NCBI GenBank assembly: GCA_018267955.1
Contig: JAFDXL010000005.1
Span: forward strand, 1 to 64,000
Reading direction: 5' to 3'
Length of the DNA stretch: 64,000 nt
DNA from: Bacteroidota bacterium
GTDB lineage: Bacteria > Bacteroidota > Bacteroidia > Chitinophagales > Chitinophagaceae
Part shown: positions 7,249 through 54,501 of the stretch, piece after piece
Position numbering within the stretch: the stretch's first letter is position 1
Layout of the letters: every line of letters begins with the position of its first letter
Notes under the pieces: model-generated
The model's input: the letters and a program-made list of their open reading frames with translations, nothing else
Told to the model about the DNA's origin: nothing
Database searches by the model: none
Made by a program: the position numbers and the translations under genes

Positions 7249-7463
7249 AACCAGCCGGATAGATCAATAATAGCATTATCATATCCTGGCCCCTCATTTA
7301 GTGAGACTGCTTCATGCCTCGCAATGACAAAGAGAAATCCTAATTCCGAATAACTAAATCCTAATTGCCCTTATTAACCTATTACCGAATTAACTTATTG
7401 CCGCATTACCGCATTATCAAATTGCCGCATTACCGCATTATCAAATTGCCGCATTATCAAATA
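7249..7463. repeat. Spacer with tandem repeats, CCGCATTA type
   Basis: No gene is present. From 7401 a 24-base unit beginning CCGCATTACCGCATTATC occurs twice in tandem (7401-7424, 7425-7448), followed by a partial third copy to about 7468. Less regular units (CCTAATTGCC, CCTATTACCG) precede it. The array touches the 3' end of the AraC-like gene at 7464. Confidence 0.75.
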
Positions 7464-8849: not shown

Positions 8850-9734
8850 TCATACCACCTGGTACACCTCCGCAAATTCTGTTGCAAAATCTAACAGCGT
8901 GGTTCCACCCTCCCGGTTATCGCTATCATAGCCTTTCAGCATCGTACCATTACGCAATGCAATGCCCACTTCTATGACATAGGTAGATGCCGCGTCTGCG
9001 CTCATGCCGTTTTGTAACAACGCCTGCAACAAGGCCTCATCCGGCAGCTGCATCCACTGCAAAGCTTCGCCAATGGCATTGCCAAGTGCTGCGGCTATTT
9101 CATTACCTGTGCGTATATCCCCTACTATATACTCCACATTATTGCCCTCAAAAGAACAGTTATTCAATGCATCAGCCGCTACACGCGCTATATCTGCCGG
9201 GTGTGAAAGAGCCATAGGTACATCACCGGCAAAATTATTACCCAGCACATGCTGTTGCCGGATGACAGGAATACTGCCGTAGAAGTTGGTATAGAACATA
9301 CCGGGGCGCAGGTGCAATGTGTTTGTTCCGGGTATGCTATTCAGCTTGTTTTCTGCATAATGGTTTGCAGATGCAGGGCCTGCACCATGCGGGGCGTCTG
9401 CCCCAATACTACTTAGATGGACCACATAGCGGATGTTGTGATACTGTATGGCAGCGGCATAGGCATCTGCTACAGCCATTATATAGCCACGGGTATCATC
9501 AGCCATAAAATTAGGTGGTGTCATGGTGTACACCGCATCTGCACCGGCAAGCGCGTGTTTTAAAAATGCGGCATCTGTAACAGACCCTATCAAAGGCCTT
9601 GCACCCATTGCTGTTATTTCATCTGCCCGCTGTGCATTGCTGCTGATAACAGACACCTGGTGCCCTGCTGCAATAAGAGATGTGGAAAGTGGTTTGCTGA
9701 TATTGCCAAGCGAACCTGTAATTGTAATGTTCAT
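8850..9734 (-). CDS. NmrA-like NAD(P)-binding oxidoreductase
   Basis: The protein has 294 residues. It opens with an atypical Rossmann motif, MNITITGSLGNISKPLSTSL, then VSVISSNAQRADEI and ADAVYTMTPPNF. These match the NmrA/atypical short-chain dehydrogenase group, which binds NAD(P)H and often acts as a redox sensor or quinone reductase (QorB-like). The classical YxxxK pair is replaced by HYAENKL. It is divergent from an HxlR regulator (start 9814), an arrangement typical of redox-responsive pairs. A -7-type promoter element is at 9757-9764 on this strand. Confidence 0.85.
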   Translation of the reverse strand: MNITITGSLGNISKPLSTSLIAAGHQVSVISSNAQRADEITAMGARPLIGSVTDAAFLKHALAGADAVYTMTPPNFMADDTRGYIMAVADAYAAAIQYHNIRYVVHLSSIGADAPHGAGPASANHYAENKLNSIPGTNTLHLRPGMFYTNFYGSIPVIRQQHVLGNNFAGDVPMALSHPADIARVAADALNNCSFEGNNVEYIVGDIRTGNEIAAALGNAIGEALQWMQLPDEALLQALLQNGMSADAASTYVIEVGIALRNGTMLKGYDSDNREGGTTLLDFATEFAEVYQVV

Positions 9735-45820: not shown

Positions 45821-46444
45821 ATGGCTATAGATATTAGTCCGCTGCTAACGGACCATAACGCCCGGCCATACCACCTGTCTGTTGTTGCAGACATCTACTC
45901 CGGGCAAGACGAAGACACCTATTATTCTGATGCGCTCAGTACCACAAGGGAAACAGCTAAAACCTCTATCCATACAGATGTGGATGATGCAGCTGCGGAT
46001 GTGAATATTATTGCTGCCATCGCAGCTATCAATAGTATTATTGATGCGGCACATGCAGCAGGTAGCTTCGACGAAACGGTAGGTAGCGATCTGAAGACCG
46101 ACATCGCTGCCGCAATCAATGCAAACATCAGCTTTGATGCAACCGCATTAAAAACAGCTACAGATACTGCGGTGAACGGGATCCCTGTAACAATTAATAA
46201 ATCAGATGTACTGAACCGGGTAAAGGTAGAGCTGGATGACTACATATCATCAGACACTACCAACTTCCCGTATGTTGATGTATGGTGCCAGGGTGCGGGC
46301 AGGTACGAGAAGTACCGCGATGCGGGCGCAGACCCCGGCGACACTTCGCTAAAACATTGCGATGTGTGCGATGGCTTTGGCCGCAAGCCTACACAGGGAG
46401 AGATCATTGTTATTAAACCTGCCACCACTATCTATCCTCAGTAA
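45821..46444 (+). CDS. Phage-cassette protein with C-terminal zinc-knuckle-like motif
   Basis: The protein has 207 residues. The first two thirds are Ala/Asp-rich and helical with two repeat-like parts (ADVNIIAAIAAINSIIDAA and LKTDIAAAINANISFDATA). Near residue 180 is KHCDVCDGFGRKP, a CxxCxGxG knuckle of DnaJ type. The portal protein two genes on has the same kind of motif. It is the first gene of the packaging cassette; its stop and the next start are one base apart. I do not recognise the family, and a structural or DNA-handling role is only suggested by context. Confidence 0.6.
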   Translation: MAIDISPLLTDHNARPYHLSVVADIYSGQDEDTYYSDALSTTRETAKTSIHTDVDDAAADVNIIAAIAAINSIIDAAHAAGSFDETVGSDLKTDIAAAINANISFDATALKTATDTAVNGIPVTINKSDVLNRVKVELDDYISSDTTNFPYVDVWCQGAGRYEKYRDAGADPGDTSLKHCDVCDGFGRKPTQGEIIVIKPATTIYPQ

Positions 46445-46445
46445 C

Positions 46446-46919
46446 ATGAAGATCAATTACATCATCAAGAGTTCAGAACAAAAATACAGCAAGTTGTTTG
46501 CAGAGCAGGCGTATAAGCTATGCCTGCTGGGCATGGACGATACTGCACTAGCCGGTGTTTTCGACATCTCGGAAGATGTATTGCAGCAGTGGAAACAGGA
46601 ACATAAAGAATTTGCAGCAGGTATACATAAAGGGCGGGCGCTGGCGGATGCAGAGGTGGCTTTGGCACTCTACAAAAGAGCGGTGGGATATGAAGCGCCG
46701 GATGTGGATATACGATTGGTGGCCGGCGAAGTGAAGCAGACACCTTGCATCAAATATTACCCGCCCGATACCTCTGCCATTAACTTATGGCTTAAATACA
46801 GGCAACCCGATTACTGGGCCGATAAAAAACGTAGTACCACCACCACGCTCGACGACCTGGGCAATATATCAGAGGCAGAGATAGATGCACGCATCGAAGC
46901 ACTTACCCAATTACTATGA
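46446..46919 (+). CDS. Phage terminase small subunit-like protein
   Basis: From the ATG at 46446 the protein has 157 residues. Its N-terminal helix-turn-helix (FAEQAYKLCLLGMDDTALAG then VFDISEDVLQQWKQEH) and the segment HKGRALADAEVALALYKRA with INLWLKYRQPDYWADK are typical of terminase small subunits. These bind the DNA packaging site and load the large subunit. A longer frame from 46362 overlaps the preceding gene and is unlikely. The stop overlaps the terminase large subunit start (ATGA). Confidence 0.82.
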   Translation: MKINYIIKSSEQKYSKLFAEQAYKLCLLGMDDTALAGVFDISEDVLQQWKQEHKEFAAGIHKGRALADAEVALALYKRAVGYEAPDVDIRLVAGEVKQTPCIKYYPPDTSAINLWLKYRQPDYWADKKRSTTTTLDDLGNISEAEIDARIEALTQLL

Positions 46920-48322
46920 AGCTTGAAGAAAAGAAAGACTTGCTGCGCTTACTGTTACAGAAGCGTTGTGCAGCAGCACGCAATCACCTCGGGGTATTCA
47001 CACAGTTTACTATGCCCTCGTTCTCGCCCACTTGGTTTCACCGGTCGTACTACGAGGTATTGAACCGTTTTGCGCAGGGGCAGATACGCAAGCTGATGAT
47101 CTTTGTACCGCCGCAACATGGCAAATCAGAAGGGGCTACACGCAGGCTGCCTGCCTACCTGCTGGGTATCAACCCCGATCATAAAATAGCTATCGTTAGC
47201 TATTCTGCAGCCAAGGCGCGCAAGTTCAATCGCGAGATACAGCATATACTGGATGATGCTCCCTACGCACAGTTGTTTCCGAATGTGAGGCTATCCAACG
47301 GAGCAGACGGCTATGCCCGCACAATGGACGAGATAGAAGCAGTGGGTTATAACGGTGGCATCAAAACAGTAGGTGTAGGTGGTGCACTTACGGGCGAGCC
47401 TGTAGATATACTCATCATGGACGATCTCTATAAAGATGCCAAAACAGCCTGGAGCGAGCTGATGCGCGATAGCATAGAACATTGGTACAATGCAGTTGCC
47501 GAAACGCGCCTGCATAATAACAGCCGCCAGCTTATAGTATTCACCCGCTGGCACGAGAAAGACCTTGCTGGATATCTCCTGCAAAAAGAGGCCGACTGGG
47601 AAGTATTCACCTACCCGGCTATAAAAGTGGGCAAGCCCAATGCTTATGATCCGCGCAATGAAGGCGAGGCTCTGTGGCCCGAACGGCATAGCGCCGCTAA
47701 GATGGAAGCTATCCGTCAGCGCGATCCCTGGGTATTTGGCAACCTCTACCAGCAGGATCCAAAAGTAAAAGAAGGATTGCTATACAAAACCTTCAAAACC
47801 TACAAACTATTACCTACAGATGCCGTCACCATCAAAGCGGTGGTAGATACGGCAGATACCGGAAGCGATTATTTATGCAGCATAGTGTATGCCACATCGC
47901 CACAGGGATATTATATACTCGACATCATCTACACGCAGGATGGTATGGACACTACCGAGCAGCAGGTGGCGGCACAGCTCTGCAAATACCAGGTGCAGCA
48001 GGCACGTATAGAAAGCAATAACGGTGGCCGTGGCTTTGCCCGCAATACAGAACGCATTTGCCGCACCATGGGCAATACACGCACTGTATTCCAATGGTAT
48101 CACCAGCGCGATAATAAAGAGGTGCGCATCTTCACCCGTGCTGCCGAGGTACAGAATATGATCCATTATCCCGATGGATGGGATGCATTATACCCGCAGT
48201 TTTACGCAGCCGTAAAAGGCTATATGGCACAGGGGCGCAACCGGCACGATGATGCTGCCGATGCACTCACCATGATACTTGAAGCAGAAACCAAAAAAAC
48301 TTATAACATTCATTACACCTAA
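46916..48322 (+). CDS. terL: Phage terminase large subunit
   Basis: The protein has 468 residues with all motor parts visible. The Walker A-like motif is FVPPQHGKSEGATRRLPAYL, Walker B is VDILIMDDLYKDAK and the coupling motif is LIVFTRWHEKDLAG. The C-terminal RNase H-type nuclease has its acidic residues in AVVDTADTGSDYLCSI, ARIESNNGGRGFARN and NRHDDAADALTMILE. It drives DNA into an empty capsid and cuts concatemers. The frame is intact and no key residue is missing, which argues against long neutral decay. Confidence 0.93.
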   Translation: MKLEEKKDLLRLLLQKRCAAARNHLGVFTQFTMPSFSPTWFHRSYYEVLNRFAQGQIRKLMIFVPPQHGKSEGATRRLPAYLLGINPDHKIAIVSYSAAKARKFNREIQHILDDAPYAQLFPNVRLSNGADGYARTMDEIEAVGYNGGIKTVGVGGALTGEPVDILIMDDLYKDAKTAWSELMRDSIEHWYNAVAETRLHNNSRQLIVFTRWHEKDLAGYLLQKEADWEVFTYPAIKVGKPNAYDPRNEGEALWPERHSAAKMEAIRQRDPWVFGNLYQQDPKVKEGLLYKTFKTYKLLPTDAVTIKAVVDTADTGSDYLCSIVYATSPQGYYILDIIYTQDGMDTTEQQVAAQLCKYQVQQARIESNNGGRGFARNTERICRTMGNTRTVFQWYHQRDNKEVRIFTRAAEVQNMIHYPDGWDALYPQFYAAVKGYMAQGRNRHDDAADALTMILEAETKKTYNIHYT

Positions 48323-48327
48323 ACATT

Positions 48328-49980
48328 ATGATACTATCACTACAAGACATAGAGCAGATCTTAAAGAACAGGCCCAACAAAACATTGGTAGATGCCGCGC
48401 AGGCCTACAGCCGCAAGCTCACCATGCACATCACGGGTGCGGGGCTCGATACCTATATACAGAAGCTCGATTATTTTGAAAAAAAGGAGTTGTATGATAT
48501 CCGCCTCCGGTACACACGCAGCAATAAAGATTTCTTCAGCCGCCTGCATCGCCCTATAGATAAAATATTTACAGCCAATGGGGGCAGCAGCTACTACAAT
48601 ATGCCCGATGGTGCACGCCGCGCCTTCCTCCAGTTGCTGGGCGATGTAGAATGGGGGCATAGCCTGCGCAGTTGGGTAAAGACCTTCTGGCAGCCTGCAC
48701 TACACTACGATCCTATGGGGCTTATTATGATGGAGGTAGATGCTAAGGGCGATACCTACCCTACCTACAAAAGCAGTAACAGCATTTACGATTACCAGCT
48801 TACCGGCCGCAGGCCCGAGTACGTAGTGTTATGCACCGATATAAAAACAGGTGACACCAATAGAGCAGATGGCAAGCCGCGCAAGATATATCGCGTAGTA
48901 GATGATGCGATGGACTACCTGGTAGAGTGGAATGGCAACACAGCTGTTATCATACAAGAGCACAGCTTCACCAACTATTATGGCAAGCTTGCAGCATGGG
49001 TATTGTCAGACAGGTTTGATCCCCAGCGCGGGTATTATATCTCCCCCGATGATGCAGTAATAGAACTGGCAGATCAGTACCTGCGCGAGGGCGGCATCCT
49101 CAATGTATTCAAAAATCATTTCGGCTTTCCGCAGCGCTGGCGTTATATGGGCGATTGCGATAAATGCAAGGGAACTACACAGATCAATGGTGAAGCCTGC
49201 GATGCCTGCAATGGCAGCGGCAGGAAACATAAGTACGATGTATCGCAGGATATCAACCTGCCGATACCATCCAAAGAAGATCCTTTGCTGGTACCACCTG
49301 CGGGCAATATAGAAGCTTCCGTTACTTCCTGGGATAAGATGGATGGCTCGCTGGATGCACTCTTTAATATGGCCTACTATACCAAATGGGGCGTGGACTA
49401 TGCCATACAAACTTCCGGCCCGGATATAAAGACAGCTACGCAATCGCTCATGGATGAGCAGCCAAAGATCGAGGCACTATACGCTTATAGCAGCGCAGCC
49501 GAGCAAACGGAAAAAATGATAGCAGACCACATGGGCAGCTTCTACTTCGGCAGCAGTTATGGTGGTGCAGATATCAATTATGGTAAACGCTTTATGCTCG
49601 AAAGCCCTGATAAGATCATGGATAGCCTGGTGGCACTGGTACGCGATGAAGCTCCGTACGAGATAGTCCGCGAAAAGATGGAAGCCTACTACCACACCCT
49701 GTACCAGGGAGATAGTGTAAAGCTGAACACCGCCTTGAAGCTGATAGATGTAGAGCCCCTGCCCTTCTGCCCGTTGAGTCGCGCTAAGGAATTATTGAAT
49801 CCTATGGACTATGCGCGTAAGCTGTACTACAACGACTGGCGTGGCCTCAAAACCACCCGCGACATGCTGATGAAAAGCACCGTAGAAGCCCTGCGCGCAT
49901 CACTCACCACATATACATTGCAACGCATCAGCGACCCTACTGTAACAATAACCACGCAACCAATAACCACAATAATATGA
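48328..49980 (+). CDS. Phage portal protein with inserted zinc knuckle
   Basis: The protein has 550 residues and is placed directly after the large terminase, the usual portal position. The fold features agree: an N-terminal helical part, a wing (HYDPMGLIMMEVDAKGD, SSNSIYDYQLTGRRPEY) and a late helical stem (ALYAYSSAAEQTEKMIADHM). Near residue 275 is an unusual insertion CDKCKGTTQINGEACDACNG with SGRK after it, a four-cysteine CxxCxG pair like the DnaJ zinc knuckle. It would form the ring through which DNA enters. The portal call rests on position and fold pattern. Confidence 0.75.
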   Translation: MILSLQDIEQILKNRPNKTLVDAAQAYSRKLTMHITGAGLDTYIQKLDYFEKKELYDIRLRYTRSNKDFFSRLHRPIDKIFTANGGSSYYNMPDGARRAFLQLLGDVEWGHSLRSWVKTFWQPALHYDPMGLIMMEVDAKGDTYPTYKSSNSIYDYQLTGRRPEYVVLCTDIKTGDTNRADGKPRKIYRVVDDAMDYLVEWNGNTAVIIQEHSFTNYYGKLAAWVLSDRFDPQRGYYISPDDAVIELADQYLREGGILNVFKNHFGFPQRWRYMGDCDKCKGTTQINGEACDACNGSGRKHKYDVSQDINLPIPSKEDPLLVPPAGNIEASVTSWDKMDGSLDALFNMAYYTKWGVDYAIQTSGPDIKTATQSLMDEQPKIEALYAYSSAAEQTEKMIADHMGSFYFGSSYGGADINYGKRFMLESPDKIMDSLVALVRDEAPYEIVREKMEAYYHTLYQGDSVKLNTALKLIDVEPLPFCPLSRAKELLNPMDYARKLYYNDWRGLKTTRDMLMKSTVEALRASLTTYTLQRISDPTVTITTQPITTII

Positions 49981-50177
49981 CAAAACGTAAAGAAGCAGGC
50001 CAAAACCTGAAACAGTATGAATACTGGAAAGTGCGCCCCGAATATGAGAACGGCGACACACCTGAATGGCGCAAGATAGAAGAACTCATCGCTATCGTAT
50101 CCCTGGAGCCACGCCATGCAGATGCACTCAACGAACATTCGCACAATACAGGCTTCCGTTATTTCCCCGTATCCTGA
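49977..50177 (+). CDS. Small phage-cassette protein
   Basis: The protein has 66 residues (MTKRKEAGQNLKQYEYW ... FRYFPVS), charged and probably alpha/beta. Its start overlaps the portal stop by four bases and the scaffold-like gene follows 27 bases later. It is translationally coupled to the portal, which suggests a structural or assembly role. No family was recognised. Confidence 0.6.
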   Translation: MTKRKEAGQNLKQYEYWKVRPEYENGDTPEWRKIEELIAIVSLEPRHADALNEHSHNTGFRYFPVS

Positions 50178-50204
50178 TAACATTTAAAAAACCACAAGTA
50201 CACC

Positions 50205-51014
50205 ATGTTAAGCATACAAGCACAAAAACAATTATTACAGATCGTAGGACTGCCTGCAGACGAGATAGAACAACTGCTGGCCGCAGAAGACCCGCAGGAT
50301 ATTACCCTGCCCGATGGCATCCGCGTATATGATGCAGAGGGCTATGCAGCGCTCGAAGCGCAGCTCAAAGCCAATGGCAAAACAGGCTACATCAACGCAG
50401 GTAAGGAAATAGCCATTAAGAACCTGAAGGAGAAGCTGGGTATAGAATATGATGGCAAGGATGCAGATGTATTCCTGCAAAAGGCAAAGGAAAAGATATT
50501 GGCAGATGCAGGCGATGCAGAACAACTGGCAACCCTACGCCAGCAGTTGCAGGACTATGAAGCACAACTGCAAACACTCAGCACAGAAAAGCAATCTCTT
50601 GTGCGCGATACAGAATGGCTGAAGAAATTCCCCGCAGGGCGCAGCGCCGGCATGAGCGATGAGGACAGGCTCCTGCTATTAAAAACACGCCTTACCCAGC
50701 AGCAGGACGATGGCGGCAACACCACCTACCTGTATAAAGGCAAGCCACTGGCAGATGAAGAAGGCAGCTATGATATAGCCCGCACCCTGCAGCATGTATT
50801 TACAGAAGAGCGCTGGCTGGGCGATAGCTACCCCATGCAGCACCGCCCCGGGCGTGGCACACACAGCAGCCGGGGCAGCGGCTACCGCCCCATGACCCTC
50901 ACCGAAGCCGAAACCCAATGGGAACGCACGGGCCGCAAAGCTGAGGGTTATGAATTCCAGGCGCATGTAGTAAGCCTCAAAAAAGAAAACCCGGATTTTG
51001 ATCTGAATAAATAA
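50205..51014 (+). CDS. Phage scaffold-like protein
   Basis: The protein has 269 residues. A small N-terminal domain (GLPADEIEQLLAAEDPQDI, IRVYDAEGYAALEAQLKANG) precedes a coiled coil around residues 90-150 (ATLRQQLQDYEAQLQTLSTE) and a flexible Arg/Gly/Ser-rich segment (HRPGRGTHSSRGSGYRP). Acidic, coiled-coil proteins between portal and major capsid genes are usually capsid scaffolds. Here no major capsid gene follows: the gene is closed by a terminator. The assignment is by position and composition. Confidence 0.6.
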   Translation: MLSIQAQKQLLQIVGLPADEIEQLLAAEDPQDITLPDGIRVYDAEGYAALEAQLKANGKTGYINAGKEIAIKNLKEKLGIEYDGKDADVFLQKAKEKILADAGDAEQLATLRQQLQDYEAQLQTLSTEKQSLVRDTEWLKKFPAGRSAGMSDEDRLLLLKTRLTQQQDDGGNTTYLYKGKPLADEEGSYDIARTLQHVFTEERWLGDSYPMQHRPGRGTHSSRGSGYRPMTLTEAETQWERTGRKAEGYEFQAHVVSLKKENPDFDLNK

Positions 51015-51055
51015 CGGTCTGCCCCTTTCCAGGGATGGAGTCTTTCATAGATCAA

Positions 51056-51083
51056 AGCCTACCCGCAAGGGTGGGCTTTTTGT
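51056..51083 (+). terminator. Terminator closing the packaging cassette
   Basis: AGCCTACCC (51056-51064), loop GCAA, GGGTGGGCT (51069-51077), then TTTTTG. The stem has one G-T pair. It sits 42 bases after the scaffold-like gene and marks a clean end of the cassette. Confidence 0.85.
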
Positions 51084-51239
51084 TATTCAGACATTTCCCA
51101 CAATAAATGAAAAAATCAAAAAATCAAAAAAATTAAATCCACAGCACTTTCGGGGGTTTTACCCACACTTTATCCCCAGCTGTCAATTACTTTATATACT
51201 GTTTGCATTTTTGTTTTCAGTATTTCGTAACGTTGTATT

Positions 51240-51737
51240 ATGAAAGAAGCAACTGCTAAACAGATTGCATTATTGGAAGAACAGCTTGAAGAAGTTGAGC
51301 TGCAGGTATTGGAAGCCACGCGAAGGCTAAAAGAGCTAAAGAGGCAATTAGCAATACTTAGGAAGAGTAGCTTTGACTGGGCTGAAATATCGTTAAAATG
51401 CTTAGCTCAATTTGACGAACCACTTTCAACTACAGAGATACTGGATATGTTTATTTATTTGAAAAACGAGGAAATAAGCTCAATTAAAAGAAGAGAGTAT
51501 ATAATGGCACTCTCTTTAAGGTTGAATAGAATGGTTCAGGCAGGCAGACTTTTTAAACATAATCATGATGGAATTAAAGGAAATTTTTATGGGCTAAAAG
51601 AATGGCAAGAGGGTGAGATACTGAAACCTCTTTACGCATCGCGGCTCAAAGAAAAAGTTGACAGCATAAAGCCTCGAAACGAAGATAATTTCTTAACTAA
51701 AAAAAGAACTAGATCGAAAGTAGTATTACAAAAATAA
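51240..51737 (+). CDS. Coiled-coil protein with winged-helix-like domain
   Basis: The protein has 165 residues. Residues 1-45 form a strong coiled coil (AKQIALLEEQLEEVELQVLE and ATRRLKELKRQLAIL). Residues 50-125 resemble a winged helix (FDEPLSTTEILDMFIYLKNE, IMALSLRLNRMVQAGRLFKH). The tail is basic (TKKRTRSKVVLQK). A DNA-binding role for a dimer is likely but not shown. The gene is more AT-rich than the packaging cassette, which points to a different origin. It has its own terminator. Confidence 0.65.
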   Translation: MKEATAKQIALLEEQLEEVELQVLEATRRLKELKRQLAILRKSSFDWAEISLKCLAQFDEPLSTTEILDMFIYLKNEEISSIKRREYIMALSLRLNRMVQAGRLFKHNHDGIKGNFYGLKEWQEGEILKPLYASRLKEKVDSIKPRNEDNFLTKKRTRSKVVLQK

Positions 51738-51770
51738 AAAGGATACAGCTTGACAGAGCTGCATCCTTTT
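51737..51770 (+). terminator. Terminator after the coiled-coil gene
   Basis: AAAAGGATACAGC (51737-51749) pairs with GCTGCATCCTTTT (51758-51770) with one A-C mismatch. It begins at the last base of the stop codon. Confidence 0.7.
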
Positions 51771-51945
51771 GAAAACCTTAATGTTTTTGTCCTCCAAGAC
51801 TCAACAATATTAAATGCTGGGCTATTCGACCCTAAGCATTATGGGGGTTTTCTTTGCCTACAAAGTTACTAACTATAACTTAAATGGCAATACTGTTCGG
51901 AGATCGGGTGCCGAATATTAAACACCGGCTGTAAAATGATATGTT
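51771..51945. other. Non-coding stretch
   Basis: I see no gene, promoter consensus or clear repeat in this AT-rich stretch before the zinc-ribbon gene. Confidence 0.4.
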
Positions 51946-52104
51946 ATGACCGGACATACTGGTGAAACATGCCAGGTAAGTGGAGTATACAAATGCTCTA
52001 TGCACCCGTCAAATACTATACCACTGGCTAAGGGTAATAAGTTTCCTCCATGCCCGATGGGTAGTGGTCATGGTGCTACTTGGATTCTTATTCAACGCGC
52101 TTAA
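51946..52104 (+). CDS. Small zinc-ribbon protein, 52 residues
   Basis: An ATG at 51946 opens 52 codons. The product begins MTGHTGETCQVSGVYKCSMH and continues with IPLAKGNKFPPCPMGSG and ATWILIQRA. Cys9, Cys17, His20 and Cys36 are spaced as in small zinc ribbons of the TGE-x-C-x-xSG-x-Y-x-C-x-x-H ... I-PL-x-KG-x-x-FPPC type. The pattern strongly supports a real gene despite its size. It is followed by a palindrome at 52117-52139. The function is unknown. Confidence 0.65.
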   Translation: MTGHTGETCQVSGVYKCSMHPSNTIPLAKGNKFPPCPMGSGHGATWILIQRA

Positions 52105-52116
52105 CCGCTGAATTAA

Positions 52117-52139
52117 GGGTGACTGAAATTCAGTCACCC
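52117..52139. repeat. Perfect palindrome between small genes
   Basis: GGGTGACTGAA (52117-52127), one base, TTCAGTCACCC (52129-52139). It could be a 9-bp stem with a five-base loop. It follows the zinc-ribbon gene by 12 bases and precedes the next ATG by 45. The following ATTTTC is only a weak U-tract, so the terminator role is uncertain. A related hairpin is at 52387-52409. Confidence 0.7.
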
Positions 52140-52184
52140 ATTTTCAAACGCAATTTGATTTATTAATTGAAAACATTTATTAAA

Positions 52185-52382
52185 ATGAGCAATAACCGTT
52201 CAAGAAATAACGACGGAGAATTCCGTAAAAAAAGAGGTGATACTAAAGTTCAAAATCTTAAAGAAACTTATCCAGAATTTAACGGAATAAATGGCAACAC
52301 CCATCTTAAAACCTTAAAAGAAAAATTCAACACCGATTCATTAGATGGTGTATTAAAGAATCTAAAACAAAATAGAAATTAA
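52185..52382 (+). CDS. Small basic protein of unknown function
   Basis: From the ATG at 52185 the protein has 65 residues (MSNNRSRNNDGEFRKKRGD ... LKNLKQNRN). It is strongly basic and has two similar segments: TKVQNLKETYPEFNGI and THLKTLKEKFNTDSL. A start at 52167 would add six residues. The gene is AT-rich and lies between two similar hairpins. A nucleic-acid-binding role would fit the charge, but nothing else supports it. Confidence 0.6.
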   Translation: MSNNRSRNNDGEFRKKRGDTKVQNLKETYPEFNGINGNTHLKTLKEKFNTDSLDGVLKNLKQNRN

Positions 52383-52386
52383 CAAT

Positions 52387-52409
52387 GGGTGCTGATTAAT
52401 TCAGCACCC
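52387..52409. repeat. Second hairpin of the GGGTG-type
   Basis: GGGTGCTGA (52387-52395), loop TTAAT, TCAGCACCC (52401-52409). It starts four bases after the stop of the 65-residue gene and ends 21 bases before the next ATG. It resembles the palindrome at 52117-52139 in both arm sequence and position. Confidence 0.7.
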
Positions 52410-52430
52410 TTAACCATTTGTACTATAACA

Positions 52431-52823
52431 ATGATAACAACAGAATTAAAAGATCAAATACTAAATGAAATAGTAGACAATTCAACTGACATGTTTGTCA
52501 CCTTTAATATAAATGAACTAGCGGCCAAGTACAATGTTGGAAGCAAAACTGTCGATGCCATGCTTCATGAATATGAAAATCGACAATTCATGGATGTTGA
52601 TAGAATGCTAGGTGGTCGTGTATATTGTAATTTAACTATTCGAGTATATGATTTCATTAAAAACGGTGGATATAATTTTGAAGACACTATTGCATCCATC
52701 CAACTTGAAAAACTAAAGTTAGAAATACAATCACTTGAAGGAAGCATACCTAATGCTAAATACACTCTTCTAATGACAACTATCGGAGCGATAGCGACTG
52801 CTTTAACACTCTTTAAAAAGTAG
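52431..52823 (+). CDS. Membrane-anchored winged-helix candidate
   Basis: From the ATG at 52431 the protein has 130 residues. Residues 1-60 look like a winged helix (FNINELAAKYNVGSKTVDAM then LHEYENRQFMDVDRMLGG). Residues about 85-105 form a helix with LEKLKLEIQSLEG. The end is a single membrane segment, YTLLMTTIGAIATALTLF, followed by KK. A DNA-binding head with a C-terminal membrane anchor would be an unusual arrangement for a small island gene. Topology and DNA binding are inferred. AT-rich like its neighbours. Confidence 0.6.
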   Translation: MITTELKDQILNEIVDNSTDMFVTFNINELAAKYNVGSKTVDAMLHEYENRQFMDVDRMLGGRVYCNLTIRVYDFIKNGGYNFEDTIASIQLEKLKLEIQSLEGSIPNAKYTLLMTTIGAIATALTLFKK

Positions 52824-52826
52824 ATA

Positions 52827-52975
52827 AGCTAAGTTGACGCTACATCAACCTTAGTTCTCCCAGTTGGCGCAAGCATGCAGTCAGACTTTTGCATAGCGTG
52901 CTTGTGCCTTATTTTATTTCCCCAAGTTGGCGCAAGCATGCAGCCAAGCATTTGTGAGCAGCGTGCTTGCGCTTT
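52827..52975. repeat. Tandem long hairpins downstream of the small-gene islet
   Basis: Two copies of a ~50-base unit start with AGTTGGCGCAAGCATGCAG (52862 and 52925, period 63). In each, GGCGCAAGCATGC pairs with GCGTGCTTG(T/C)GC (stems 52866-52878/52896-52908 and 52930-52941/52961-52972). The first is followed by TTATTTTATTT, a possible terminator. A smaller hairpin, CTAAGTTGA with TCAACCTTAG, precedes them at about 52828-52853. Confidence 0.75.
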
Positions 52976-52991
52976 ACAACATATCGTCTAT

Positions 52992-53405
52992 CTAGAACAC
53001 CCTGTGCTTGTTGCTGATCTTATCTAGATAATCTGAAATTTTCAGATTCTTATATTCGTAGTATACACCTTTGTATTTATATACCCTCGCCTGAAGAAAA
53101 TATATTGTGTCTATATTATGTAAAGCGTGAAGATAAACCACCATATAAGCGTGGTCATGCTTAGGAATATAACTCAGTTTAGATACTTCTGTTGATTTTA
53201 ATAGTTCAAGTATATGTCTTTTACGCGATTGGTCTTTAACAATTGTGGTATCAATTTGTAGCCCACTGGTGTAAAACATATTACAGGATACATCGTCAAA
53301 GTCTTCCAGACTGCCTGTTTCGTTGTTATGAATTTCAATAAAATCGATGTTGGCTAATTTATAATTAGCAAAAAACAGCAATAGCGAAATCAGCAAAACT
53401 TTCAT
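52992..53405 (-). CDS. Exported protein of unknown function
   Basis: The protein has 137 residues with a short signal peptide (MKVLLISLLLFFANYKLA). The remainder is a small alpha/beta domain (KRHILELLKSTEVSKLSYI, AYMVVYLHALHNIDTIYFLQ, YYEYKNLKISDYL). One cysteine only (DVSCNMF). No family was recognised. AT-rich, like the islet on its left. Confidence 0.6.
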   Translation of the reverse strand: MKVLLISLLLFFANYKLANIDFIEIHNNETGSLEDFDDVSCNMFYTSGLQIDTTIVKDQSRKRHILELLKSTEVSKLSYIPKHDHAYMVVYLHALHNIDTIYFLQARVYKYKGVYYEYKNLKISDYLDKISNKHRVF

Positions 53406-53645
53406 TACCTGAAGATAACATTTTCAAAATACCGGGCACACAATTCATTCGCGTTCTTTAATTGAGTTTGGATCGACTATTTCGTTTCTCGCAGTGACTC
53501 TAACTAAACGTAAAACACTACAATTCGTTAAAGTCTATGCTGCCTTTGCTACCAAGCTTCTTGTCGTTTGGTCCTCATTTGCAACGAGGATATCCCCGCC
53601 CAGCGTTTCCAACGCCCGAAAGCACAGTATCAGGTTTCATCAATA
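53406..53645. other. Spacer containing a protein-like relic
   Basis: On the minus strand, 53535-53636 reads as 33 codons then a stop, without a start codon: LETLGGDILVANEDQTTR and SLVAKAA are contained in it. The same DNA holds a small dyad TCCTC (53572-53576) / GAGGA (53586-53590). It ends next to the TonB_C gene. It looks like a fragment of a coding or mobile element, but I cannot name it. Confidence 0.35.
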
Positions 53646-54395
53646 CTATTCCGCCAAACTAAATTTTATCATCACGGTAGTTAATACCGGTACGGGCAAA
53701 TAATGTTGTCGGCCCGGTTGCCAGTGCGGCATCAGTTTCACAATGCGTAGTGCTTCTTCGTCGCAGCCATCACCAATGCCTTTCAACACCTTACAGTCTG
53801 TTATACTGCCATCTTCGTTGATCACAACCTGCACAGTTACGGTTCCCTGTATGCCTTTTGCTTTTGCTGCCTGTGGGTACTGCAGGTTGTCCTGTATATA
53901 TTTATTAAAGTCAAAACCCGGTACAGGCATGTGTTCTACAAATGTATAGGGCGTTGCTGCAAAATGGACTTTATACGCCGTACCGGATTCACCTGCCTTA
54001 GGCAGCACAAAGCTTACCGGTATATACCCATTTGATGCCAGTGGCTTGCCTTCCTGTAGTTTGGCATGCCAGCGCGGCATACCGGCAACAAGCTTTACCG
54101 CCACATCGCCGCAGGTCTTCATAATGCCGGCAACATCGCATACGCCATTGCTATCTGCCGCTATGGTCATATGCACATTATTATTTACCACATGGCAATT
54201 GCTGATGGCACCCGTACTGTCAATGGTAAAGTTCACCATAACACTTCCCTCGGCCCGGCAATCTTTTGCAATAGCAGGATAATTGAAATGGGCAGAGAAA
54301 TAGGAATAGAGATCATAACCGGGTTGTGCATCTTCTGTTTGTGCAATGGTATGCATGGCGGGCAGCAGCAGGCAGGTGATGAGTATGCGTTTCAT
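53646..54395 (-). CDS. Exported protein with two TonB C-terminal-like domains
   Basis: From the ATG at 54395 the protein has 249 residues with signal peptide MKRILITCLLLPAMHTIAQ. Domain 1 (about 30-130) has FNYPAIAKDCRAEGSVMVNF and ISNCHVVNNN. Domain 2 (about 155-249) has LQYPQAAKAKGIQGTVTVQV, DGSITDCKVLKGIGDGCDEE and ALRIVKLMPHWQPG, the standard TonB_C pattern. Unlike true TonB, there is no membrane anchor or Pro-rich linker, so it is probably periplasmic. The role is unknown. Confidence 0.88.
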   Translation of the reverse strand: MKRILITCLLLPAMHTIAQTEDAQPGYDLYSYFSAHFNYPAIAKDCRAEGSVMVNFTIDSTGAISNCHVVNNNVHMTIAADSNGVCDVAGIMKTCGDVAVKLVAGMPRWHAKLQEGKPLASNGYIPVSFVLPKAGESGTAYKVHFAATPYTFVEHMPVPGFDFNKYIQDNLQYPQAAKAKGIQGTVTVQVVINEDGSITDCKVLKGIGDGCDEEALRIVKLMPHWQPGRQHYLPVPVLTTVMIKFSLAE

Positions 54396-54471
54396 TGCAA
54401 TAAATATTTGATGCAATTTACATTATATAGATTGCCTGTCGCATTTCGTGGTTGGTATTAGAATTCTCAAC

Positions 54472-54501
54472 AAAAAAGGCCGCTCTTTAAAAAAAGCGGC
54501 C
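54472..54501 (-). terminator. Minus-strand terminator with no annotated gene before it
   Basis: GGCCGCT (54478-54484) pairs with AGCGGCC (54495-54501) around CTTTAAAAAA. Only on the minus strand is it followed by a run of T. The nearest minus-strand start upstream is the 32-codon frame at 54565-54663, so it implies a short transcript there. Confidence 0.75.

Follow-up and report, generated by a model that had tools for sequence, protein, structure and literature searches.

Conserved phage-derived DNA-packaging genes at one chromosomal site in two species of Chitinophagaceae

A packaging cassette in the window

The window analysed here is a stretch of 64,000 nucleotides from the genome of a member of the Chitinophagaceae (G000:C6:1-64000, where G000 denotes this genome; its assembly comprises 4.18 Mb in 10 contigs and is 98% complete). 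At positions 45821–51014 it carries a cassette of six intact, co-directional genes on the plus strand, including those for the small and large terminase subunits (TerS and TerL) and the portal protein of a tailed phage, followed by a terminator (Table 1). The intergenic distances are, in order, 1, -4, 5, -4 and 27 nt, so that the tight packing described in an earlier, sequence-only reading of this DNA was confirmed. The GC content of the cassette is 0.50, compared to 0.44 over the window's first 45 kb.

Table 1. Features of the cassette and its surroundings. Positions are those of the window; identities and dN/dS (NG86) refer to the comparison with locus L002 of the sister species.
Feature	Position	Strand	Family and phage matches	Comparison with L002
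First gene, 207 aa, C-terminal CxxC motif	45821..46444	+		orthologue at 8906-9529, 93% aa identity, dN/dS 0.05
TerS	46446..46919	+	phrog_309, 8.5e-39	88% aa identity, dN/dS 0.17
TerL	46916..48322	+	phrog_38, 4.9e-94; PF03237, PF17289 and TIGR01630 above cut-off	96% aa identity, dN/dS 0.027
Portal, zinc-finger-like insert	48328..49980	+	phrog_7376, 3.2e-34; 36% to Pan5 portal	dN/dS 0.05
66-aa gene between portal and scaffold	49977..50177	+		83% aa identity, dN/dS 0.12
Scaffold-like protein, 269 aa	50205..51014	+	phrog_30432 (function unknown), 1.6e-4; Pan5 homologue, 5e-11	dN/dS 0.08
Intrinsic terminator closing the block	51054..51079	+	26-nt hairpin, 11-bp stem
Left host flank gene, 256 aa	44778..45548	-		same neighbour
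Right host flank gene, 213 aa	54781..55422	+		same neighbour
Variable slot beyond the terminator (small uncharacterised genes and, by eye, a TonB-like gene)	51083..54472	.		homology breaks, then resumes

The motifs PPQHGKS, LIMDD, DTADTGSD, ESNNGGRGF and HDDAADAL of TerL, which we take to be the Walker A and B motifs of the ATPase and those of the nuclease, align with two phage TerL proteins and are all intact, in agreement with the sequence-only reading. The zinc-finger-like insert of the portal is common to its phage relatives and could be aligned in three phages. The start of terS is most likely at 46446; a longer open reading frame (ORF) of 185 aa from 46362 would overlap the first gene. 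TerS has no relative in Pfam, NCBIfam or PDB, and neither the 207-aa nor the 66-aa protein produced a family match beyond chance in PHROGs and Pfam; the former had no phage match either. In another genome of the genus, G005, terS is preceded by a gene for a 158-aa protein whose end has CxxC motifs. The structure model of TerS displays short helices at the N-terminus at low confidence (mean pLDDT 37), and neither this model nor that of the 207-aa protein (mean pLDDT 40) was used as evidence. The 269-aa protein, for which NCBIfam gave no match, is considered scaffold-like from its position and its homology to the gene preceding the capsid gene in related phages; phrog_30432 is also the family of the Pan5 gene immediately 5' of the capsid gene.

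Relatives of the portal were found (E up to 0.01) in six records of a phage collection, representing four phages: Pan5, MD05, P12002L and P12002S. The gene order in Pan5, MD05 and P12002L is portal, small gene(s), scaffold-like gene, capsid, neck and tail, so that genes for packaging and for the head and tail co-occur in one phage lineage. When the portal alignment was compared with 294 genomes of the family, matches were obtained in 20, and besides G000 they were full-length in G160, G105, G198, G199 and G133. Packaging, capsid, neck and tail genes lie in one piece in the four of these that were examined (G160, G105, G198 and G133), whereas the portal gene of G199 resides on a contig of 3.7 kb. 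In the G160, G105 and G133 prophages the first gene mapped after the scaffold-like gene is that of the capsid; in the G198 prophage the scaffold-like gene gave no match. The window's cassette thus shares with the siphophages resembling Pan5 and P12002L (ON968456.1, OP947161.1, NC_028924.1) and with these prophages the zinc-finger portal, the small gene and the scaffold-like gene, but differs in that its packaging block is severed from capsid and tail. It ends where a capsid gene is to be expected, as the sequence-only reading had supposed, and it did not originate as a stand-alone motor, since the next gene in related phages is that of the major capsid protein. The closest relative of TerL is that of Porphyromonas phage005 (56% identity), while the portal is nearest to the Pan5-like phages; therefore, the parts are mosaic. 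Walker A of the phage005 TerL (L003:9941-12388) is interrupted midway by a long insertion, which by eye resembles an intein.

Genes for capsid, tail or lysis functions, or early phage genes, were not detected in the window by tblastn at 1e-4 with 15 head-tail-lysis proteins and four early proteins of the sister species described below as queries, the remaining genes of the window not all having been scanned for domains. Scans of the window for Rfam families and tRNA genes gave no match.

Conservation of the cassette in a sister species

Homologues of TerL were sought in a collection of 84,980 species, each represented by one genome, using short exact peptide patterns, which reach close relatives only. 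This returned a single other locus, L002 (MKUO01000018.1), which is the same place as contig C18 of the sister species G010, 'Bacteroidetes bacterium 43-93', where TerL is present in single copy. Among 59 genomes (G000 and 58 relatives) TerL was found in these two, corresponding to two of the 15 genomes of the genus. A TerL scan of the viral_contigs set gave nine pattern matches, none of which was a relative.

All six genes are present in L002, with equal lengths and 86% DNA identity, flanked left and right by the same host genes. Flanking matches of at least 780 nt are 86–90% identical and two short ones 81%. The cassette has therefore diverged to the same extent as its neighbours, which is what would be expected under vertical inheritance. 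Pairwise dN/dS values on the two sequences (NG86) were 0.027–0.17 for the six genes versus 0.04–0.14 for five host neighbours, two of these host pairs having been trimmed in frame at the start, with overlapping dS; terL and the portal gene, for which the sequence-only reading had proposed this comparison, are at the lower end. With YN00 the values were 0.04–0.27 for five cassette genes (all but the 66-aa gene) and 0.05–0.21 for the host genes. There is no gap opening between the two species within the six genes, nor in a flanking host gene, compared to five in ∼360 aligned nucleotides of non-coding DNA that is homologous and lies between or next to the genes; this control comprises the homologous part only, as the region of 182 nt behind the last gene is partly non-homologous. 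When all 673 observed differences were placed at random on one coding sequence, a mean of 25.5 stop codons resulted, and none of 2000 runs was free of stops. Decay without selection was rejected on this ground, and a misassembled cassette was rejected as well, because the two assemblies agree on both flanks; the latter also disposes of the possibility, raised in the sequence-only reading, that capsid genes lie just beyond a misassembled junction. Taken together, these comparisons indicate that selection has maintained the cassette intact ever since the two species diverged, and the claim that it is not a dying remnant held.

The terminator hairpin is identical in L002, while the few dozen nucleotides between the last stop codon and the hairpin have two indels. 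The block is thus closed by a terminator as had been described, although over the whole window the scan did not exceed chance (eight terminators found versus 6.6 expected). Homology between the two species stops ∼70 nt past the last cassette gene, a few nucleotides beyond the terminator. In place of the slot listed in Table 1, L002 (14179-17292) contains an Old-family nuclease gene (PADLOC Old, 2.5e-232) and a gene that by eye is desaturase-like; PADLOC gave no match for the four slot genes of the window that were scanned. Searches for empty sites with the right flank gene as query produced matches in five of 14 genomes, at 90% identity in G010 and 41–47% in the other four. The 272 bp preceding the block and the 286 bp following it have no 10-mer in common, direct or inverted, and only scattered short pairs of repeats were seen there; an insertion bracketed by att-like or inverted repeats was rejected accordingly.

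Head, tail and lysis genes in the genus

A gene of the capsid family phrog_7231 is present in G010 (7.9e-30; a second match was weak, 0.10). It is located on the minus strand at C18:208.8-209.8 kb, on the same contig as the G010 cassette (C18:271.8-277.0 kb, plus strand), so that the two modules are 62 kb apart and extend over 85 kb from end to end. Leftwards of the capsid gene, down to 191.7 kb, follow genes for an adaptor (phrog_8189) and a tail terminator (phrog_29973), both named after the Pan5 record, a tube-like protein recognised by position, a tape-measure protein (phrog_339, weak), a tail protein (phrog_15220) and an endolysin (phrog_181). Searches of C18:90-264 kb with four types of TerL, five portals and the scaffold-like protein gave no match. 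The GC content at third codon positions (GC3) of the cassette (0.47–0.58) resembles that of the head-neck genes of G010 (0.50–0.55). The position of the head-tail module is taken from the single public assembly of G010. Among the tail genes there is also a lipoprotein-like gene (L034:9200-9826; 208 aa, GC content 0.37), which a 232-aa gene at L035:7364-8062 resembles by eye.

C18 was also compared with the contigs of G000. The segment C18:132.6-150 kb matches G000 C7:140-159 kb, and the match continues to C18:153.4 kb; from 228.1 kb onward, C18 matches the window from its first bases. Synteny with C18 thus ends on C7 at 153.4 kb and resumes on C6 at 228.1 kb, so that the two contigs flank a gap corresponding to 75 kb of G010. 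DNA of C18 from within this interval gave only short or low-identity matches in G000 and no orthologous stretch, the segment at 190-197 kb not having been searched: there were two matches to 153.5-170 kb (among the best 40 of 62 first-look candidates), three to 170-190 kb (best 40 of 46), none to 197-210 kb (best 20 of 33) and 58 to 210-228 kb (best 40 of 86). The matches to 210-228 kb represent several kinds of scattered intergenic repeat, exemplified by window positions 7302-7462; some of these repeats occur in near-tandem groups (G000 C6:430.3-431.2 kb). The stretch of G010 that matches the gap includes the capsid module and a radical-SAM HemN-like gene. The capsid-tail module of G000 probably sits in the gap adjoining the contig of the window; a real deletion of the module in G000 is a conceivable alternative. 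Of the statement that capsid, tail, lysis and integrase genes are missing, the part concerning the window agrees with the searches made there, which for integrases covered the tyrosine type; for the genome the lack of a capsid gene is unreadable, as the 75 kb fall between C7 and C6, and the suggestion of a motor retained by itself loses its footing for the same reason.

Contig C7 (end at 170289) terminates 7.8 kb past the synteny break, within an element with a serine recombinase gene. This element (L087:3358-10885; G000:C7:162.4-169.9 kb) encodes the recombinase (PF00239, PF07508), a helix-turn-helix protein and, by eye, an AbiE-like pair; it adjoins an acetyl-CoA carboxylase-like gene (by eye) and is absent at that place in G010.

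Other phage-derived sets occur in the genus. A cousin of the cassette in G005 (C97) has a TerS of the Terminase_2 type, a scaffold-like gene 42% identical to that of the cassette and a 161-aa ORF (L043:9198-9683) in which a TerL-like start is fused to a portal-like end by internal deletion. Some 7 kb of mostly non-phage genes, largely sensory ones, among them those for a PAS histidine kinase and, by eye, FIST and response-regulator proteins, then precede the capsid gene.

A second set, conserved in two genera, is dispersed among host genes in G004 (L052/L053; C1:2288-2320 kb) and G007 (L054/L055; C2:1372-1404 kb), with other loci in G172 (L057/L104/L105) and G087 (L059/L060/L106). In G004 and G007 it comprises a portal (phrog_7376, 1.6e-12), a tape-measure protein (phrog_25241, 4.6e-11) and, at the place of the capsid, a 443-aa protein that is presumed from this position to be the capsid protein; no PHROG, Pfam or NCBIfam family matched it. 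A TPR histidine kinase gene lies between the portal and 443-aa genes, the tape-measure gene is separated from TerL-like genes by 13 and 20 kb, and no tyrosine recombinase was found within 65 kb of the set in either genome. Between G004 and G007 the 443-aa proteins are 95% and the portals 91% identical, versus 77–80% for four flanking host proteins. The 443-aa protein occurs in nine of the 294 family genomes, at 72–95% identity within the genus and 76–77% in four genomes of genus g73; in the two of these that were examined, its gene and the portal gene are 27 and 43 kb apart. Two further genomes have it at 42% (with a stop) and 24%. G012 and G014 show opposite losses: in G012 (L056, C142) portal and tail genes are kept and no match to the 443-aa protein was found, while G014 (L107/L108, C3:235-249 kb) keeps the latter with its neighbouring genes, but of the portal and tape-measure genes only fragments, which adjoin each other. 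The second set is possibly a stronger candidate than the cassette of the window for a multi-locus gene transfer agent (GTA). Breakup and retention of phage modules thus recur in the genus, a pattern compatible with repeated domestication as well as with repeated gradual loss.

Probable origin and possible role of the cassette

On balance, we consider it probable that the cassette represents the packaging module of an element of siphophage origin, which was broken into separate chromosomal loci before the G000 and G010 species split. The genes for TerS, TerL, portal and scaffold occupy one locus; those for capsid, neck, tail and lysis occupy another, which in the sister species lies 62 kb away on the opposite strand. 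Both modules would be expressed in the same cells, each supplying in trans what the other lacks; packaging would start on chromosomal DNA, and the contents of the particles would be host DNA for the most part, which is also how gene transfer agents operate. With modules that span ∼85 kb and genomes of related phages of 45–50 kb, a head of that size could not hold the whole element. Among the suggestions of the sequence-only reading, a GTA split over several loci therefore fits best, the sister species having the complementary module 62 kb away.

Several observations weigh against this interpretation. The phrog_7231 family has no match in the contigs of G000, where the orthologous stretch falls in the assembly gap, and because the head-tail module was seen in one species, the selection figures cover the cassette only. 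In G010 the GC3 of the tape-measure and later genes is lower (0.33–0.43), and replication and repressor genes persist near the capsid gene: those for DnaB, DnaA-like and Lin1244_N proteins at 12–15 kb, or 12–17 kb if S24 is included, with non-phage genes intervening. TerS may keep a DNA-binding end, for which the predicted structure is too poor a guide. As TerL is restricted to two of 15 genomes of the genus, any domestication must be young. Finally, related elements in the genus are eroded (G005, G014).

The erosion, that is the TerL/portal fusion ORF of G005 and the fragments of G014, together with the early genes still near the G010 capsid module, speaks in favour of a prophage that rearrangement has disrupted and that is being lost, its halves slowly decaying. 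We regard this as unlikely, though it is the most serious competitor, because the same block is found in two species and has acquired no indel or stop, with dN/dS of 0.027–0.17, over a divergence equal to that of the flanking host genes.

Terminase, portal and scaffold might instead serve, independently of any capsid module, as decoys that spoil the packaging of infecting phages. Such an interference device would be in keeping with the Old-family nuclease gene directly after the terminator in G010 and with there being no known capsid gene in G000; but the Old gene is not in the slot of the window, the catalytic motifs of TerL, needless for a decoy, are intact, all six genes rather than one are conserved, and G010 keeps intact head-tail-lysis genes. 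This role appears decidedly improbable to us.

Integrases bear on the two remaining possibilities. On C18 of G010 the tyrosine recombinase family PF00589 was found only at 76.8 kb, that is, not within 114 kb of either module, and its first occurrence on C6 of G000 is at 156.9 kb (C6:156881). A tyrosine recombinase lies within ∼7 kb of the mapped phage genes in the one-piece prophages of G105 and G133 and at ∼20 kb in that of G198, with none on the contig in G160. Serine recombinases were not seen at C18:150-230 kb of G010 when ORF lists with lower limits of 80–150 aa were read, no model scan having been made. An inducible prophage that still works, with modules apart on the chromosome and an infectious phage carrying both on one molecule, would explain why repressor and replication genes remain in G010; given the lack of a near tyrosine integrase and of a contiguous genome, modules on opposite strands over 85 kb and related phages of 44.8–49.8 kb, there is very little to be said for it. 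A mobile satellite packaging itself in the capsids of a helper, as capsid-less phage satellites do, shares with the window packaging genes without capsid genes, but is scarcely credible here, considering that no tyrosine integrase (the only type considered) precedes 156.9 kb on C6, no bracketing repeats were found, the block occupies the same site in both species and diverges with its neighbours, and a matching capsid module resides in the sister chromosome; the corresponding suggestion of the sequence-only reading was abandoned.

In RcGTA, terminase, portal and capsid genes lie in one cluster. The proposed split element of G000 and G010 is unlike GTAs in that its packaging and capsid modules are themselves apart, in its narrow distribution and in the replication genes nearby. 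According to one review (PMC9662315), GTAs are of tailed-phage descent, their endogenized genomes often occupy multiple loci and are not packaged whole, and they are inherited vertically and co-diversify with their hosts, package mostly random host DNA and deliver it to other cells; a second source (PMC11841831) remarks on TerS proteins without a detectable DNA-binding domain and on the lack of own replication genes. The cassette's descent from tailed phages is apparent from PHROG and phage matches. Endogenization over multiple loci is seen in G010, where the modules are 62 kb apart, while in G000 one module is seen and the other region falls in the gap. Packaging of the whole element would require a head for 85 kb, compared to 45–50 kb in related phage genomes. 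Vertical inheritance is suggested by the same site and similar dS in two species, but TerL was not found in 13 of the 15 genomes of the genus. Phage-derived genes in more than one locus, the absence of a near tyrosine integrase and inheritance over one speciation are features in common with GTAs such as RcGTA and BaGTA (PMC9662315). We therefore describe the element as GTA-like by anatomy and do not call it a GTA.

Judged by titles and abstract openings, the open-access literature searched presents no GTA of Bacteroidota, and in one article (PMC12946183) the process reported for Bacteroides is lateral transduction, with GTA activity described in other groups. GTAs are hard to distinguish from defective prophages, and a packaging module severed from its capsid module and under purifying selection in two species constitutes a sharp and testable case of a phage in the midst of domestication. 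It is tempting to speculate that the genus has domesticated phages with phrog_7376 portals into multi-locus GTAs at least twice, once as the split cassette and head-tail set and once as the dispersed set of G004, G007, G172 and G087. We hold this as a tentative idea, which is weakened by the lack of PHROG, Pfam and NCBIfam matches to the presumed capsid protein of the second set. If true, it would mean that GTAs exist in Bacteroidota, with a packaging motor encoded apart from the head that it fills.

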